Shown in pieces: positions 8,412-38,013 of a stretch of DNA of 64,000 nt. Positions within the stretch are counted from its first letter, which is position 1. Each line of letters starts with the position of its first letter. Both the position numbers and the translations under genes were made by a program. Where the stretch lies: contig MKWG01000011.1 of NCBI GenBank assembly GCA_001899685.1, positions 1 to 64,000 of the forward strand, in the 5' to 3' direction. The notes under the pieces are model-generated. The model did no database searches. It had not been told where the DNA came from and worked only from the letters and a program-made list of their open reading frames with translations. The stretch is from Sphingobacteriales bacterium 44-15. Its GTDB lineage: Bacteria > Bacteroidota > Bacteroidia > Chitinophagales > Chitinophagaceae.

Positions 8412-8524
8412 TTTTAATTTTTTTCTGTGATTGAATGAATTGATACCAAATTAAATTGTTTTTTGCTGATAATTGTTACCATCCAAACGTTTCTTAAAAA
8501 AAAGATATTGTTGGATATACTACT

Positions 8525-8727
8525 GCTATGTCAAAAGTGAAATGGGAGAGGTGAAAGCTTGTCTCACGTTTCACCTCTCACGTTTCACGAAAATGAACAG
8601 ACATAATTTGCTTGACTTAACACTACCATTAAGTTAAAACTATTTTGTTGTAAACAATCGTTAGACGAGAAAGGTGAGACGTGAGATTTTTACGCCTGAC
8701 TTCTGACGTTTCACGATTAACATAGCG
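8525..8727. repeat. Heptad-family element, inverted ends
   Basis: CTATGTCAAAAGTGAAATGGGAG ... CTGACTTCTGACGTTTCACGATTAACATAG; TCTCACG TTTCACC TCTCACG TTTCACG inside. Confidence 0.8.
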
Positions 8728-8750
8728 CTATTTTGAAGCTATCCGTAATA

Positions 8751-9785
8751 CTACTGCATCTTCTGCACCAGCATACAGGCATGCTGGGTTGCCTTGTAGC
8801 AATTGTATATCAGGAAGCTGTGAGCGCCAGGTTTTGAAGCGCCGGATTTAAAGAGCCCAACGGGCATTTTCTCCCGGGTGCAGGCTAACCATAATGCCAC
8901 TGCCGATGAAACAGGAAACTCCCCGGTAATATGTTTATACCGGGCAATGCCTGTTTGGTCTGTGAACAGGGATTCCGCTGCACTGTAATATTTTTGCAGC
9001 CTGTTATCCCCGTTCTCGCCGGTTATTAATATATCTATATCAGTTGAAGCCCCTGCATATTTTTTTATAAAGGCATCCAGGAATGCTTTTACTTCCTGCT
9101 CATTATCCGAATGAAGGGTTTGCAGTGCTTTTAATTGGGCCACAGCGTCCGCAGGTTGATCATTTACTAAAAACATCGTCGCGCCTTCCCCGGCTATGCT
9201 TCCTGCTGTATCAGAGTCATAAAGGCCTGAGCCAGGCTGTAGCCTGCTTTTATACCAGCCGTCCAGGTAATCAATATTGTAGTTATAAGCAGATATTTCG
9301 TCCACTGCACCCACTATATAGCTGGCTCCGGGGTGAGCATCCAGCAGTATCATAGCATCCAGCAGCGCGTTTTCAAACGACAGTCCCCTGTGCACATGGG
9401 TAATATTATAACCCTTGTTTGCCGTCATCAGCCCCAACTGGGCAGCTATGGCATTAGGAGTGCTCTGAACGAAATTGCCTGGTGTAAGCATTCCTTCTTC
9501 ATAATCAATGATCTGGTTGAGGAATTTGATGCAATCTTCCATACCGCCGTTGGCAGTTCCTATTATGATGCCGTCAATATCCGGGTACTTTTTCACTATC
9601 GGCAGAGCGGCTCCCACTCCCATACGCACTGCTTTTCCCATACGCCGCAGGATGCCAGGAGGGATGCCTCCGTATACAGGCTCCCTGGCGGTAAGTTTGC
9701 CATCAACAGCATGGTGCCATGTATCCAGGTTGATATTGCCGAAAGTTTCCTGCGCCGATATGCAGGTATGCCCGTGAATGTACAT
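8751..9785 (-). CDS. Beta-ketoacyl synthase-like protein lacking an obvious catalytic Cys
   Basis: IIIGTANGGMEDCIKFLNQ, FVQSTPNAIAAQLGL, thiolase-like fold order; NITHVHRGLSFENALLDA at the usual Cys position. Confidence 0.75.
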   Translation of the reverse strand: MYIHGHTCISAQETFGNINLDTWHHAVDGKLTAREPVYGGIPPGILRRMGKAVRMGVGAALPIVKKYPDIDGIIIGTANGGMEDCIKFLNQIIDYEEGMLTPGNFVQSTPNAIAAQLGLMTANKGYNITHVHRGLSFENALLDAMILLDAHPGASYIVGAVDEISAYNYNIDYLDGWYKSRLQPGSGLYDSDTAGSIAGEGATMFLVNDQPADAVAQLKALQTLHSDNEQEVKAFLDAFIKKYAGASTDIDILITGENGDNRLQKYYSAAESLFTDQTGIARYKHITGEFPVSSAVALWLACTREKMPVGLFKSGASKPGAHSFLIYNCYKATQHACMLVQKMQ

Positions 9786-9793
9786 TGGTGCAA

Positions 9794-9940
9794 ATGTAAG
9801 AGATAAGTGGTAAGTAGTATGTGGTATGTGGTAAGTGGTTGGCTGTGCCTGAAACTTGCGACCTTAACCTGGAATTGAATGCTTCTTTGTCGTCTCACAT
9901 CTCACGTTTCACTATTCTCTGCCCATTCATCTTCTCAATA
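9794..9940. repeat. Heptad-periodic array between NUDIX and KAS-like genes
   Basis: GTAAGAG ATAAGTG GTAAGTA GTATGTG GTATGTG GTAAGTG ... GTCTCAC ATCTCAC GTTTCAC. Confidence 0.8.
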
Positions 9941-11080: not shown

Positions 11081-11131
11081 GGGACAACTTACCACTTACC
11101 ACTTATCACTCACCTCTTACCTCTTGCACCC
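11081..11131 (-). repeat. Heptad-periodic array 3' of DUF58 gene
   Basis: Minus strand: GTGCAAG AGGTAAG AGGTGAG TGATAAG TGGTAAG TGGTAAG. Confidence 0.85.
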
Positions 11132-12475
11132 CTATATCGCCTGCCTTGCTTTCAGCTCTATATATTTATTGATGGTGTTTACCGTTAAGGCTTCCGGCGG
11201 CGTCAACAGGGACAGGATACCGCAATGCTGGAGCTCTTTTACAATAAGCCTTTTTTCAAAAGCGAATTTATCAGCGATGGTCTGTATATAAATTTCTTCA
11301 AGATCTTCTGCAGGCTTTTTCCTCAATGCCTTCAGCTCGGTATTTTCGAAAAATACGACAAGGAGCAAATGTTGTTTTGCTATCCTCCGCAGGTAAGGGA
11401 GCTGTCGCTGAAACCCCGGAATGGATTCAAAATTGGTAAAAAGGATCATCAGCGACCTGTTCTTTACTTTACTATGAAGGTGAGTATACAGGGCTTCAAA
11501 GTCCGTTTCAGAAAAATGAGTCTGCTGCCGGTAAAGATTTTCAAGGATAAGCTCCATTTGCATGCCTTTACGGTCGGCAGGCAGAAAAGTTTCGGGCTTG
11601 CTGGCGAAGGTAAGCAACCCTGCTTTATCATGTTTCATAAGCGCTACATTGGCCAGTACCAGTGAGGCATTGATGGCATAGTCCAGCAGCGACATCCCGC
11701 CAAAAGGCATCTTCATGTTCCTCCCCTTATCTATGAGGCAGTAAATATGCTGGCTTTTCTCATCCGTAAAAGTATTGACCATGATCTCTCCTTTGCGGGC
11801 AGTGGCGTTCCAGTTAACTTTCCTGTAGTCATCACCTGATACATATTCCTTGATCTGCTCAAATTCTGTGCTGTTGCCAAGCTTTCTCAGCCGGCGTATA
11901 CCGTTTTCATTAAGCTTGCTGGATACTGCCATCAACTGGTACCTTTTCATCTGCTGGAAAGCAGGATAAGCGGGCACTACCTGCGTGGCATCAAATATGA
12001 ACCGTTTTTCTACCAGCCCCAGCGGGCTGGTGATGCATGCATTAATGGACCCAAATGCATATTCACCCCGCTCCACCGGCCGGATGCCGTAAAAAATATC
12101 ATGAGCTTGCGATGCTTTCAAAGTAAGGCTGCCTGTTTCATACGCTTTCCGGAACTGGAATGGCAGCTCGTCAATGATACCTGCTTTTACCGTAAAGGAA
12201 TAATTATTTACCAGCGACAGTTGTATAGTATTTTCGTCGCCGTTGCTTAATCTTTCGGGAGTCGTTCTTACAGCGTTGAAAGCAGTCTTGCGCCCAAACA
12301 GCACAAGCGTATCCAGCACGATAGTAACAGCGAGCAGCAACAGGAAGATCACTGCTACCTGGTAAAGGGCAGGCAAAAAGAACGATATGATAAAGCATAT
12401 TACAATCGCTGCCAGCAGGGAATAGGAGCGCCTGGTAAGTAAAAATGACCTGTATATTTCTTTGAGAAGACGCAA
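11132..12475 (-). CDS. DUF58 domain protein
   Basis: EYVSGDDYRKVNWNATARKGEIMVNTFTDEKSQHIYCLIDKGRNM. Confidence 0.93.
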   Translation of the reverse strand: MRLLKEIYRSFLLTRRSYSLLAAIVICFIISFFLPALYQVAVIFLLLLAVTIVLDTLVLFGRKTAFNAVRTTPERLSNGDENTIQLSLVNNYSFTVKAGIIDELPFQFRKAYETGSLTLKASQAHDIFYGIRPVERGEYAFGSINACITSPLGLVEKRFIFDATQVVPAYPAFQQMKRYQLMAVSSKLNENGIRRLRKLGNSTEFEQIKEYVSGDDYRKVNWNATARKGEIMVNTFTDEKSQHIYCLIDKGRNMKMPFGGMSLLDYAINASLVLANVALMKHDKAGLLTFASKPETFLPADRKGMQMELILENLYRQQTHFSETDFEALYTHLHSKVKNRSLMILFTNFESIPGFQRQLPYLRRIAKQHLLLVVFFENTELKALRKKPAEDLEEIYIQTIADKFAFEKRLIVKELQHCGILSLLTPPEALTVNTINKYIELKARQAI

Positions 12476-18588: not shown

Positions 18589-20595
18589 ATGCCTGCACCA
18601 AACAAAACTGACAATAAAACACCTGCACATGCAGAAGGGAAAGAAAGCAATACTGCAAAACGATATGAGGATATACATTTTGTAGACAGCACAAAACCTG
18701 TGTGGAATTATTCTTTATTCCGCGGGGAAGATATCAGCAATTTTCAGCAGGGGACACATTATCATTTATATGACCTGTTTGGCTCCCGGCCGGAAAGCGT
18801 ACTGGACACCGACGGCTATTATTTCGCCGTATGGGCGCCCAACGCAACGTCTGTTACCGTGAAGGGGAATTTTAATGACTGGAACAATGAATCTCATCCT
18901 TTGTATGTAAGGCTTGATCATTCGGGAATATGGGAGGGCTTTATCCCGGGCATAAAAAAAGGGGAAGTATATAAATACCATATCAGGGGATATAAAGGAA
19001 GCAAACAGGACAAAGGGGATCCTTTTGCCTGGTTTTGGGAAAAACGTCCCAACACGGCATCTATTACCTGGGAGCTTGGTAAGGAATGGAGCGATAAGGA
19101 ATGGATGAGCGTCCGTAAGAAGCATAATGCCCTGGATGCGCCCTGGAGCATATATGAAGTGCACCTGGCGAGCTGGATGCGCCCTGATAAGAATGATGAA
19201 GAAAGCTATAATACCTATGACCAGATCACAGACCGGCTTGTTCCTTATGTAAAGGAAATGGGATTTACACATATAGAGTTTATGCCTGTGATGGAGCATC
19301 CTTTCGACGGATCCTGGGGATACCAGGGCACAGGCTATTTTGCGCCTACTTCACGGTTTGGAGATCCGCAGAGCTTCATGCACATGGTGGAAAGATTGCA
19401 CCAGGAAGGCATAGGGGTAATACTGGACTGGGTGCCTTCTCATTTTCCTTACGATGCGCATGGGTTGTTTATGTTTGACGGGACGCATACATATGAGTAT
19501 GCGGATATGCGCAAAGGGTTCCATCCCGACTGGAACAGTTATATTTTCAACTATAAAAGAGGGGAAGTAAAATCGTTTCTTATCAGCAGCGCAAGATACT
19601 GGCTCGACAAATATCATATAGACGGCATACGTGTGGATGCAGTGAGCTCTATGCTGAAGCTGAACTATTCCCGCACCACCGGCCAGTGGGAGCCCAATGA
19701 ATATGGCGGCGACGGAAATATAGAGGCGATCGCTTTTATTAAAGATCTGAATGAAACCATTTACCGTGATTTTCCCGATGTGCAGACCATTGCAGAAGAA
19801 GCAACAGACTGGCCGGGAGTAAGCAGGCCTACGTTTGAAGGCGGGCTTGGCTTTGGCATGAAGTGGATGATGGGGTGGATGCATGACACGCTGGATTATT
19901 TTAAGCTGGATCCTGTTTACAGGAAATACCACCAGGATAAGTTTTCTTTCAGCATGATGTATTTCTATGATGAAAATTTTATGCTCCCGCTGAGTCATGA
20001 TGAAGTGGTGCACGGTAAAAGCCCTATGATCTATAAAATGCCGGGGGACGACTGGCAGAAATTTGCAAATCTCCGGCTGCTGTATACTTATATGTTTACG
20101 CACCCGGGCGGTAAGCTGTTGTTCATGGGTGATGAGTTCGGGCAAACCAGCGAATGGAATTACAAGTCCGAACTGGACTGGCACCTGCTGGAATATGACA
20201 GTCACAACCTGCTGCGGACATGTGTGCGTGATTTGAATAAGCTCCTGCGCAATGAGCCTGCCCTTTATGAGAACCAGTTCAATATATACGGGTTTGAATG
20301 GGTAGACCTGAATCACAGGGATCAATGTATCGTTGTATACCGCCGGAAAGGGAAGAAACCTGAAGATGATGTTCTTGTGATCCTCAACCTTACGCCTGTG
20401 GTTCATAACGACTGGAAAATTTTTGCGGCGGGTAAAGGAAGCTGGAAAGAAATATTCAACAGTGATGAAAGAAAATACTGGGGAACCGGTGATGTGCTGA
20501 ATCCTGACATTACAACAACGCTTGTTGATAAGCAGAGCCGGATGTTTGAGATCAATGTTCACCTGCCTGCGTTGGGCGCGGTAGTGTTGAAGTGA
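18589..20595 (+). CDS. glgB: 1,4-alpha-glucan branching enzyme
   Basis: DWVPSHFPYDAHGL, DGIRVDAVSSML, SHDEVVHGK, FMGDEFGQTSEWN. Confidence 0.96.
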   Translation: MPAPNKTDNKTPAHAEGKESNTAKRYEDIHFVDSTKPVWNYSLFRGEDISNFQQGTHYHLYDLFGSRPESVLDTDGYYFAVWAPNATSVTVKGNFNDWNNESHPLYVRLDHSGIWEGFIPGIKKGEVYKYHIRGYKGSKQDKGDPFAWFWEKRPNTASITWELGKEWSDKEWMSVRKKHNALDAPWSIYEVHLASWMRPDKNDEESYNTYDQITDRLVPYVKEMGFTHIEFMPVMEHPFDGSWGYQGTGYFAPTSRFGDPQSFMHMVERLHQEGIGVILDWVPSHFPYDAHGLFMFDGTHTYEYADMRKGFHPDWNSYIFNYKRGEVKSFLISSARYWLDKYHIDGIRVDAVSSMLKLNYSRTTGQWEPNEYGGDGNIEAIAFIKDLNETIYRDFPDVQTIAEEATDWPGVSRPTFEGGLGFGMKWMMGWMHDTLDYFKLDPVYRKYHQDKFSFSMMYFYDENFMLPLSHDEVVHGKSPMIYKMPGDDWQKFANLRLLYTYMFTHPGGKLLFMGDEFGQTSEWNYKSELDWHLLEYDSHNLLRTCVRDLNKLLRNEPALYENQFNIYGFEWVDLNHRDQCIVVYRRKGKKPEDDVLVILNLTPVVHNDWKIFAAGKGSWKEIFNSDERKYWGTGDVLNPDITTTLVDKQSRMFEINVHLPALGAVVLK

Positions 20596-20746
20596 ATGGT
20601 GAATAGTGAATGGTGAATAAGAGAAACGTCAGATGAGAGAAGTGAGCGCAAGATATGCCTTACGTTACAGCGTTCGCGTCTCACCTTTCACGTTTCACGT
20701 TTCACCTTTCACGTTTCTTCTCTCACCTCACCGTTCACATCTCTGA
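20592..20746 (+). repeat. Heptad-periodic array starting at the glgB stop codon
   Basis: GTGAATG GTGAATA GTGAATG GTGAATA AGAGAAA CGTCAGA ... GTCTCAC CTTTCAC GTTTCAC GTTTCAC CTTTCAC GTTTCTT CTCTCAC. Confidence 0.92.
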
Positions 20747-20826: not shown

Positions 20827-22011
20827 GTATATTTCATGAAATATTTTAAAATATTGTGGCTTGGCTTGTTCCCGGTTACTATTAGTAGCGGTCTGTTTGC
20901 ACAAGAGACAGTGAAAGATGTTGAGCATGTAAAAGTATATTATGAAGCCGGCATGTATGGCGGATGGCCAGCGAATAATGGTATATGGATATGGGGAAAT
21001 GAAATACTGGTGGGCTTTTCAAAAGGCTATTATAAAGACCTTGGTGCCAAACATAATATTGACAGGGACAAGCCTGAGCTGCACATGCTTGCACGGAGCA
21101 TGGACGGAGGCAATACCTGGAAGGTTGAAGATCCCGGCAAAACAGGCGGGCTGGTGCCACATGGTTATTTTATGGCAAAGCCCAGGACAGATGTTCCACA
21201 ACAGCAGGTTGAGCTGCAGACGGAATCCATTAATTTCCAACACCCCGGTTTTGCCTTAACAGCGCGTTCCAACAGTGATGCCGGTGAGTCGCGCTACTGG
21301 TATTCTTATGACAAAGGACATCACTGGCGCGGGCCGTTTGCCTTACCCGGCTTTGGTACCCCGGGCACTGCCGCCAGGACAGATTATATTACAGACGGCA
21401 AAGACAAGTGTATGCTGTTCATCACTGCTGCCAAATCCAATGGAAAAGAGGGAAGGGTGTTGTGCGTAAAAACCTCGGATGGCGGCAGGCACTGGTCATT
21501 ACAGTCATGGATAGGCGAAGAGCCAGTAGGATATGCGATCATGCCTGCTTCCGTGCTGATATCTGATCATGAAATACTCGTCACTGTTCGTCAAAAAGAG
21601 GGTGACAACAGTTTTATCTCCTCCTGGTCGTCAGTCGACAATGGCAATAGCTGGAAGCAACTGAAAAATGCTGCAGACGATACAGGCATAGGAAATCCGC
21701 CTGCCATGGTCAGGATGAAGGATGGGCGGATCTGCCTGGTATACGGCTACCGGGCTGATGCGGAAAGCATACAACACAAAAGTAAGACCAGCGATATAAG
21801 AGCACGTATCAGCAGCGACAATGGTAAGACCTGGAGTAAAGAATATATTCTGCGCAACGATGGATCCGGGCAGGATATTGGTTATCCGCGGGTAGTACAA
21901 CGCCCCGATGGCAAAATCGTAGCAGTATATTATTTCATGGATGACCAGACTGGTCGTGAGAGGTATATCGGTGCTACTATTTGGAGTCCTCCTCCTTCAG
22001 GCAAAGAATAA
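20827..22011 (+). CDS. Exo-alpha-sialidase/BNR-repeat protein (secreted)
   Basis: BNR/Asp-box pattern SMDGGNTWKVED, TSDGGRHWSLQ, SSDNGKTWSKE; inner ATG at about 20836 also possible. Confidence 0.85.
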   Translation, partial: VYFMKYFKILWLGLFPVTISSGLFAQETVKDVEHVKVYYEAGMYGGWPANNGIWIWGNEILVGFSKGYYKDLGAKHNIDRDKPELHMLARSMDGGNTWKVEDPGKTGGLVPHGYFMAKPRTDVPQQQVELQTESINFQHPGFALTARSNSDAGESRYWYSYDKGHHWRGPFALPGFGTPGTAARTDYITDGKDKCMLFITAAKSNGKEGRVLCVKTSDGGRHWSLQSWIGEEPVGYAIMPASVLISDHEILVTVRQKEGDNSFISSWSSVDNGNSWKQLKNAADDTGIGNPPAMVRMKDGRICLVYGYRADAESIQHKSKTSDIRARISSDNGKTWSKEYILRNDGSGQDIGYPRVVQRPDGKIVAVYYFMDDQTGRERYIGATIWSPPPSGKE

Positions 22012-22089: not shown

Positions 22090-23331
22090 ATGACTGCGCC
22101 TCTTCCTATTTCTTTTGATAACACCGAAAATGCATTTGAATATAAAGATGATAAGGAGTTACGAAAAGCCAGGCTCCTTTTTTCATCTATGGGATATGCA
22201 TTGCTGGTGCGGCTGGGCACAACACTTACTCCCTGGGCCATTAAATCCGGTTTCCCGGTCAAAGGTATTATCCGTAATACTATATTCGAGCAGTTTGTCG
22301 GCGGTGAAACACTTGAGGAAACGGCTCCTGTTGCAAAGAGACTTGGCGCATACAATGTAAAGGTAATTCTCGATTATGGAGTAGAAGGCGGAGCAGAGGA
22401 TGAGGTTGCTTTTGACCAGGCTATGGAAGAATTTATCAGGGTGATTGATTATGCATCCACGCAACCTAATATCCCCTTTATAAGTATCAAGGTAACCGGT
22501 TTTGCCAGGCTGCAACTGCTGGAAAAGCTTGATTCATCAGTGGCTGACAACAAGGGCTCATTGATGAAACGGTATGCCCATGCGGTGGAAGCCCTTAGTG
22601 AAGCAGAGAAAAAAGAGTGGGAGAGGGTGCAGCAGCGCATGGAAAAGATCTGCGCTGATGCCGCAGAAAAAAATGTGGGTGTGCTGGTAGACGCCGAAGA
22701 GACCTGGATACAGGATCCCATTGATGTGCTTACTATACTGATGATGGAGAAGTTTAATAAGACGAGGCCGGTGGTATATAATACAGTCCAGTTGTACCGG
22801 GCAGACCGTTTGCGCTTCCTGAAAGATTCTCTCGAAGCGGCGGTATTGAGGAATTTTATCCTCGGTGCAAAGCTGGTGCGGGGCGCCTATATGGAAAAGG
22901 AAAGAAAACGGGCGGAAGAGATGATGTATCCATCCCCGATACAGGCTGACAAAGAAAGTACCGACAAAGACTATAATGATGGTATCACATTTTGCATTGA
23001 TCATATCGACAGGATTGCGCTGATCGTTGCATCGCACAATGAATACAGCAACCTGCTGGCTACACAATTATTGCAGCAAAAAGGTCTGCCGCCTGATCAT
23101 CCTCATATTCATTTTTCGCAGCTTTACGGCATGAGCGATAATATTACCTTTAATCTCGCCAAAGCAGGTTGTGCTGTGAGTAAATATCTCCCCTTCGGCC
23201 CCATTAAAGACGTCATTCCTTATCTTATGCGCCGCGCGCAGGAAAACAGTTCTGTTGCGGGGCAAACGGGCAGGGAACTTGCGTTGATCAATAAAGAGCT
23301 GGAGCGGAGGAAGAGGGGAAAGAGTATGTGA
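22090..23331 (+). CDS. Proline dehydrogenase (single-domain)
   Basis: KLVRGAYMEKERKRA, LIVASHNEYSN, LYGMSDNITFNLAKAGC, KYLPFGPIKDVIPYLMRRAQENSS. Confidence 0.95.
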   Translation: MTAPLPISFDNTENAFEYKDDKELRKARLLFSSMGYALLVRLGTTLTPWAIKSGFPVKGIIRNTIFEQFVGGETLEETAPVAKRLGAYNVKVILDYGVEGGAEDEVAFDQAMEEFIRVIDYASTQPNIPFISIKVTGFARLQLLEKLDSSVADNKGSLMKRYAHAVEALSEAEKKEWERVQQRMEKICADAAEKNVGVLVDAEETWIQDPIDVLTILMMEKFNKTRPVVYNTVQLYRADRLRFLKDSLEAAVLRNFILGAKLVRGAYMEKERKRAEEMMYPSPIQADKESTDKDYNDGITFCIDHIDRIALIVASHNEYSNLLATQLLQQKGLPPDHPHIHFSQLYGMSDNITFNLAKAGCAVSKYLPFGPIKDVIPYLMRRAQENSSVAGQTGRELALINKELERRKRGKSM

Positions 23332-23418
23332 TAAGTGGTAAGAGATAAGTGGTAAAGGATAAGTGCCTCGCTGCTTTTGACGTCTCACGTTTCACTATTG
23401 ACCATTCACCATTCACCA
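23327..23418 (+). repeat. Heptad-periodic array starting at the proline dehydrogenase stop codon
   Basis: GTGATAA GTGGTAA GAGATAA GTGGTAA AGGATAA GTG ... TGACGTC TCACGTT TCACTAT TGACCAT TCACCAT TCACCAG. Confidence 0.9.
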
Positions 23419-26563: not shown

Positions 26564-26684
26564 GGTGAATGGGCAATGGTGAATAGAGAATGGTGAAAGG
26601 TGAGACGTCAGAAGTGAGATGTGAGATGTCTCGCTTCTGACGTCTCACCTTTGACTTTTCACGTTTCTCTTCTCGTTTCACATG
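26564..26684 (+). repeat. Heptad-periodic intergenic array with 22-bp hairpin
   Basis: GGTGAAT GGGCAAT GGTGAAT AGAGAAT GGTGAAA GGTGAGA CGTCAGA AGTGAGA TGTGAGA TG TCTCGCT TCTGACG TCTCACC TTTGACT TTTCACG TTTCTCT TCTCGTT TCACATG. Confidence 0.9.
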
Positions 26685-37668: not shown

Positions 37669-38013
37669 TTATTGTAAGGAATCCTTTCTATCGGTTTTCT
37701 TTTTTCCTTCCACCAGTTTCATTCCGCATTTTGGACATGTACCAGACTTATTACTTTTTACATCTGGGTGCATGGGACAGGTATATATTTTCATGACCTC
37801 CATTTTCATTTGCTCTTTTTTAGAGCGTAAATCCATTCCGCATTTTGGGCATTTGCTAGGTTTGTCGCTTACAACATCCGGGTGCATAGGACAAGTATAT
37901 TTTACCTTTATGGAGGTGTCTGCCTTATTTTGCGTTGACTTATTAGTTCCCTTTTGTGCAAAGGCTGTATATGTACCTATGAGCATTACCAGCATGATGA
38001 TGAGCTTTTTCAT
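37669..38013 (-). CDS. Heavy-metal-binding-domain protein with two CPMHP repeats
   Basis: YTCPMHPDVVSDKPSKCPKCGMDL and YTCPMHPDVKSNKSGTCPKCGMKL. Confidence 0.92.
   Translation of the reverse strand: MKKLIIMLVMLIGTYTAFAQKGTNKSTQNKADTSIKVKYTCPMHPDVVSDKPSKCPKCGMDLRSKKEQMKMEVMKIYTCPMHPDVKSNKSGTCPKCGMKLVEGKKKTDRKDSLQ

Follow-up and report, generated by a model that had tools for sequence, protein, structure and literature searches.

RESULTS AND DISCUSSION

Heptad arrays at the end of glgB and elsewhere in the window

The window analyzed here, a stretch of 64 kb at the beginning of contig C11 in a genome of 6.0 Mb, carries a glgB-type gene whose product contains the Pfam domains CBM_48, Alpha-amylase, and Alpha-amylase_C. 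The gene runs directly into an array of 7-nt units (Table 1). The parse proposed in an earlier sequence-only reading was recovered unit by unit, with GTGAATG at 20592, GTGAATA at 20599, GTGAATG at 20606, GTGAATA at 20613, AGAGAAA at 20620, and CGTCAGA at 20627, followed in the second arm by GTCTCAC at 20678, CTTTCAC at 20685, GTTTCAC at 20692 and 20699, CTTTCAC at 20706, and GTTTCTT at 20713. Letters 2 to 4 of the first GTGAATG are the stop codon of glgB, as that reading had noticed, and further stops at 20600, 20604, and 20614 close every frame by 20616, in line with its description of stops in all three frames.

Tandem Repeats Finder gave a period of 7 or 14 for both arms, and an inverted repeat of 74% joins 20623-20649 to 20670-20696. 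The two arms are out of one continuous phase, the 86 nt from 20592 to 20678 being 12 heptads plus 2 nt. An Rfam search of the 64-kb window returned two tRNAs and nothing else.

The C-terminus of glgB ends in the same final residue in all 13 genus members compared; thus, the stop codon is native. Of the genomes compared, only that of the window has an array after glgB. In three relatives (G126, G151, and G155), glgB is closely trailed by a different gene, TPR-like by eye, which is absent from the window genome, where the BNR-repeat gene lies beyond the array instead. Elsewhere in the window, two 70-nt direct repeats with 77% identity lie 114 nt apart at 37720-37903; they probably correspond to repeated domains of the protein encoded by a minus-strand gene.

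Table 1. Coordinates of heptad elements and adjoining genes in the window
Feature	Position	Strand	Basis and remarks
glgB-type gene (1,4-alpha-glucan branching enzyme)	18589-20595	+	ORF and Pfam; 668 aa; TGA stop 20593-20595 common to first heptad
G-rich arm 1, four GTGAATR heptads fused to glgB stop	20592-20619	+	Sequence, Tandem Repeats Finder
Degenerate GTGARAC-type heptads AGAGAAA CGTCAGA TGAGAGA AGTGAGC, left arm of palindrome	20620-20648	+	Inverted repeat
Nonperiodic 25-nt spacer between facing arms	20649-20673	+	Sequence
C-rich facing arm, GTTTCAC/CTTTCAC/GTCTCAC heptads (GTGARAC family on the other strand)	20674-20738	+	Tandem Repeats Finder, inverted repeat
BNR-repeat protein gene, next after glgB	20836-22011	+	ORF, domain search; start about 100 nt past array end
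GGTAAGT heptads fused to TGA stop of proline dehydrogenase gene, then C-rich CATTCAC-type arm	23325-23418	+	Tandem Repeats Finder, lag-7 scan, Pfam
Facing palindrome of GTGAATR/GTGARAC heptads	26568-26679	+	Inverted-repeat and lag-7 scan; 39-nt arms, 82%
GGTAAGT/GGTATGT array just upstream of start of minus-strand gene 8751-9785	9797-9839	+	Tandem Repeats Finder, lag-7 scan
ACTTACC array (GGTAAGT on minus strand), downstream of stop of minus-strand gene 11132-12376	11084-11125	+	Tandem Repeats Finder, lag-7 scan
Two adjoining MITE-like elements, TA-ended inverted termini, GTGARAC heptads inside	8521-8730 (8521-8625, 8624-8730)	+	Inverted-repeat analysis

A 7-nt step between genes throughout the genome

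Genes were called with a small custom codon-usage script, for which individual starts are approximate and stops depend less on the script. In the intergenic DNA of C11:1-400000, the fraction of matching bases was 0.310 at lag 7, 0.301 at lag 14, and 0.289 at lag 21, against about 0.26 to 0.28 at nearly all other lags; the coding DNA of the same interval had no peak at lags 7, 14, or 21. Over 1.6 Mb (four contigs), 178 intergenic arrays were detected at lag 7 versus 2 to 4 at lags 4 to 6 and 8 to 13. A genus mate, G151, gave 73 lag-7 arrays in 1.2 Mb versus 1 to 12 at other lags. The 7-nt step is exclusive in both genomes, being confined to lag 7 and its multiples, and tandem 7-nt units are over-represented between genes while other unit sizes are not, as in intergenic heptameric simple sequence repeats. 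The genome-wide excess on which the sequence-only reading had staked its case is therefore present.

The total was 231 arrays in 1.6 Mb of the window genome, or by extrapolation roughly 870 per genome. The glgB element is thus one of several hundred intergenic heptamer arrays. An N run within a heptad/MITE region at C11:195199-195408 suggests that such arrays break assemblies.

Word families, facing arms, and gene ends

Eight hand-defined families (GTGARAC, GTGAATG, GCTATSA, GGTAAGT, GTTWCAG, ATTTGAR, GTATAAG, and GTTTATG) accommodated 314 of 323 arms; thus, words are common to different loci. Successive arms faced each other in 94 cases, ran in the same direction in 9, and pointed away in 2, the G-rich arm coming first and the C-rich arm second. 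These counts rest on a split similar to the one made in long arrays at the peak of G/C skew, which builds in the G-then-C order, and polarity was recounted on unsplit arrays, where G-rich then C-rich occurred 26 times and the reverse never. Both arms belonged to a common family in 57 of the 94 facing pairs, compared with 20 expected by shuffling.

Arrays occupied 40 of 144 convergent gaps and 137 of 631 codirectional gaps (82/382 on the minus strand and 55/249 on the plus strand) versus 11 of 172 divergent gaps. Inward-facing pairs, proximity to the 5' gene, and rarity between divergent genes are all found here, as in heptamers of the Rehm/Mrazek kind.

Word choice depends on the gene end. ATTTGAR heptads adjoined start codons in 13 of 36 classified arrays and stops in 7 of 124; examples beside starts are C11:202333, C11:205305, C11:206890, C37:73673, and C37:178076 in the window genome. 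GGTAAGT heptads have the opposite preference, lying beside stops and seldom beside starts.

Array edges coincide with stop codons

When array starts were detected without use of the coding sequence, their density in successive distance bins from the stop fell from 29 per nt through 10.7, 11, 5.1, 2.1, 1.6, and 0.66 to 0.09; that is, 29 arrays began at the first base past the stop, about 11 per nt at 1 to 7 nt, and fewer than 1 per nt beyond 57 nt. At or before the third nucleotide past the stop, 72 arrays started versus 28 expected under random placement, and the same placement test revealed no pile-up at start codons. The pile-up at stops was replicated in G151, where TAG was over-used too. 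Array starts are thus placed nonrandomly with respect to stop codons; random placement would have refuted the sequence-only reading.

The periodicity also enters the stop codon itself. The lag-7 match was 0.70 at its third base, 0.51 at the second, and 0.44 at the first (P = 7e-12, 1e-4, and 0.02, respectively), and it was near background upstream of the stop, within the gene. Stop usage beside arrays shifted away from TAA toward TAG and TGA (P = 1e-9). Where the G151 orthologue ends in TAA, the window genome has TAG in 9 of 17 array genes versus 26 of 145 others (P = 0.003). Neighboring repeats can therefore shape both stop codons and the preference among them. Judged by eye, the C-terminus ended in register in about 20 of 30 orthologue comparisons, and the stop is native there; in a few genes, the last residues and the stop were encoded by the array. 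Annotators should accordingly be aware that array-encoded C-terminal tails occur.

The sequence-only reading had suggested that such an array could act as an all-frame translation stop behind its gene. Stops in three frames within 30 nt were indeed found in 56% of stop-abutting arrays; the corresponding share was 4% at array-free ends and 14% in shuffled arrays. However, the untranslated outward strand of arrays beside starts is just as rich in three-frame stops (0.53, n = 30) as arrays beside stops (0.45, n = 106), so that the property belongs to the words and gives no sign of selection. The GTTWCAG family, whose outward reading is mostly free of stops, abuts stops as well, and the native, in-register stops in about 20 of the 30 comparisons made by eye need no backup. 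The proposed function is contradicted by these counts, and we regard it as hardly credible.

Facing arms as possible RNA hairpins

Selection on the transcript is another way to read the facing arms: they would be 3'-end hairpins, acting as terminators or mRNA stabilizers, whose sequence drifts while the structure is kept. Consistent with this, arrays are located after genes and avoided between divergent genes, gaps with arrays have stronger inverted repeats than do equally long gaps lacking them, and array presence is kept at orthologous gaps despite word turnover (see below). Canonical terminators are also depleted where arrays occur, being found in 4 of 40 convergent gaps with arrays versus 27 of 74 without (P = 0.002) and in 7 of 134 codirectional gaps with arrays versus 70 of 406 without (P = 0.0003). 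A G+C-rich stem with a T-tract, the form of an intrinsic terminator, was present at 2 of 128 ends with an array near the stop and at 98 of 568 array-free ends. Arrays could replace terminators; however, wrong-strand terminators are depleted at arrays too, which makes crowding as good an explanation as replacement. Arrays also adjoin classical terminator-like hairpins, as at C43:301447 (kept in G151) and C3:200273.

A hairpin selected as RNA should tolerate G.U pairs, yet mismatches between arms comprised 251 A.C and 238 G.U (P = 0.59), or 329 and 316 in another count, with no excess of G.U. T-tract terminators, the positive control, leaned only weakly toward G.U (98 versus 72 A.C), so the test is moderate evidence against a selected hairpin. 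In addition, the two arms come from different word families in 37 of the 94 facing pairs, which hence pair poorly. Arrays folded only slightly more stably than 3' ends lacking them (median z, -1.35 versus -0.95), values too close together for RNA folding to serve as proof of function. Thus, of the foldable 3' untranslated region that the sequence-only reading envisaged, the inverted arms are real, but the gain in stability is slight and the G.U excess is missing, by a test whose control is weakly positive. A selected RNA hairpin is not supported, and we consider this explanation unlikely.

One facing palindrome of GTTTATG type, at C37:78637-78700, is nearly identical in the window genome and G151, whose orthologous proteins have a median identity of about 77%; it is a candidate for a conserved, functional copy.

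Origin and turnover of arrays

Within arrays, the similarity between heptads was 0.726, 0.675, 0.629, 0.544, and 0.471 at lags 7, 14, 21, 28, and 35, respectively. Such a fall with distance is predicted by local 7-nt duplication and not by independent selection on each unit. It bears as well on the idea that arrays are protein platforms, bound by a factor that recognizes DNA every 7 bp, in the way the plasmid repressor omega2 reads its heptads. A reader of this kind would account for the strict phase across mixed arrays and for the consistent facing orientation; on the other hand, one genome holds at least eight different word families, similarity decays along arrays rather than holding to one consensus, and omega2-type pairs of heptads are scarce, at 11 per 1.6 Mb. 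We judge a protein platform to be very improbable.

Among 104 orthologous gaps with conserved neighbors in the window genome and G151, arrays were present in both genomes at 13; with length and orientation matched, 4.6 would be expected (P = 2e-4). At about half of these 13 gaps, the two genomes use different word families; at the orthologous gap C37:81510, for example, one species has GTTACAG words and the other has GTTTATG. Since arrays are kept while their words are swapped, position is more durable than sequence. The retention could also reflect selection for presence. As for rearrangement scars, adjacency relative to G151 was kept at 47 of 92 array gaps and at 150 of 283 array-free gaps, and this origin was discarded; the difference in the gene downstream of glgB from three relatives is an exception and not a general rule for array gaps.

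The words common to different loci can also be read as the mark of non-autonomous mobile elements, either MITEs or REP/BIME moved by RAYT transposases. A MITE-like family with GTGARAC heptads inside does exist: it is about 100 to 150 bp long, has TA ends and the termini TAGTGTTATGTCAA...TTGACATAACACTA, occurs at C11:94330-94510 and other sites besides the two window copies, and gave about 48 intergenic matches per 1.6 Mb versus 7 for scrambled ends. However, these TA-ended elements hold just 19 of the 231 arrays, and the glgB array lies outside them; most arrays lack TA-ended termini and vary in length and word mix. Nor is insertion expected to pile up at stops or to carry periodicity into stop codons.

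REP are intergenic palindromes that lie after genes and are avoided between divergent promoters. The arrays of the window genome resemble REP/BIME in being palindromic, placed after genes, and avoided between divergent genes; unlike REP/BIME with RAYT, they have no fixed hairpin unit and no link to the number of Y1 transposases. The window genome has 3 Y1 transposases and many arrays, G151 has 9 and fewer arrays, and G009 has 284 matches of one word pair and no Y1_Tnp, so a RAYT/REP origin was rejected. Mobility as a general account of the arrays is quite improbable.

The reading that we favor, with a probability of roughly 0.58, is that these are heptamer arrays grown by slippage and copied inversely by template switching, expanding until coding DNA blocks them. 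Repeated local tandem duplication of 7 nt through replication slippage would lengthen an array, and template switching or inverted copying would supply the facing arm. Words would be seeded between loci by ectopic copying, in part by a MITE. Growth would run through tolerant DNA and halt at coding DNA, so that the array ends up bordering the gene within its stop codon, and the bases free to vary there may be rewritten in the process (TAA to TAG or TGA). Three-frame stops would simply follow from the words, and termination or RNA stability would be influenced, if at all, as a side effect. Pure local slippage alone yields neither a vocabulary common to loci nor facing polarity, and the position-specific words (ATTTGAR at starts and GGTAAGT at stops) are not accounted for by the slippage model.

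Distribution in relatives

Among named relatives identified by their glgB, lag-7 arrays were found in Pinibacter soli, Terrimonas ferruginea, Flavihumibacter, Longitalea, and Niastella, with additional words that include TTGAAAG and ATTGCCA. These glgB matches suggest that the window genome is itself a member of Chitinophagaceae. When the phylum was sampled with a single word pattern, four consecutive GTGAN3 units, 31 of 110 genomes matched; some of these hits consist of one long perfect array each, and the reversed control pattern was matched equally often in one genome. By the GTGA pattern, most genus members appeared array-free. This view was abandoned, as G151 is nearly blank for the GTGA word and has 73 arrays; they use other words, so single-word searches undercount.

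A single bacterial genome can contain period-7 arrays by the hundred, with many words and one layout; what stays constant is the 7-nt step and the way the arms face, not the sequence. The question thus moves from the role of a given heptamer to machinery with a 7-nt step; Pinibacter, Terrimonas, and Flavihumibacter are examples of culturable relatives in which to test it. A bolder version, which we hold to be improbable, attributes the facing arrays at gene ends throughout Bacteroidota to a dedicated process of DNA synthesis or repair that has a built-in 7-nt step and would write them and later rewrite them; the same would happen independently in cyanobacteria, Xanthomonas, and Beggiatoaceae, with the word exchanged while position and layout persist.

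Comparison with known heptamer repeats

Heptamers are over-represented among bacterial simple repeats (PMC4692102), and a proposal cited in that paper traces the length of 7 nt to the stretch of DNA that the active site of the polymerase holds. Xanthomonas and Nostoc contain dispersed, intergenic heptameric repeats of GGGAATC or GGGGA(C/T)T (Rehm et al. 2015, PMC4692102). In Xanthomonas, there are 70 to 75 inward-facing pairs per genome, located on average 28 nt from the 5' neighboring gene and far from the downstream gene (PMC4692102). The arrays described here share with both groups the heterogeneous 7-nt units, the inward-facing pairs, the proximity to the 5' gene, and the rarity between divergent genes, and with Xanthomonas the occurrence at the same gene pairs in two species with changed array length and sequence (PMC4692102). 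In contrast to the single, G-quadruplex-capable G-tract word of Xanthomonas and Nostoc, the window genome uses at least eight words without G-tracts. In its 1.6 Mb, GGGNATC or GGGANTN tandem pairs were absent and one G4 motif was found, unlike G-quadruplex heptamers. Further differences are that the periodicity enters the stop codon and that words are swapped at orthologous gaps.

TAACTGA direct repeats have been described in Beggiatoaceae, cyanobacteria, and five Bacteroidetes, and their three-frame stops and overlap with ORF ends were already noted (MacGregor 2015, PMC4679880). Both systems consist of intergenic heptamer arrays with all-frame stops, some overlap with ORF ends, and other heptamers mixed in (PMC4679880). 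The TAACTGA repeats, however, use a single word and lie mostly just upstream of starts, whereas the arrays of the window genome lie mostly after stops; no TAACTGA tandem pair occurred in 1.6 Mb, and arrays were not enriched at starts.

The likeness to cyanobacterial heptanucleotide repeats drawn in the sequence-only reading holds, in that the STRR of Calothrix, as cited in PMC4692102, likewise comprise several tandem 7-nt words per genome. Its remark that no Bacteroidetes counterpart had been described is partly true, given the TAACTGA heptamers in five Bacteroidetes (PMC4679880) and the similar layout in Xanthomonas (PMC4692102). As far as the literature searched shows, three traits are undescribed: the use of many words in Chitinophagaceae, arrays fused with stop codons, and the turnover of words at orthologous gaps. 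The kind itself is already known from the heptamer repeats of Xanthomonas and cyanobacteria, and the arrays reported here are best read as a Bacteroidota variant of it.
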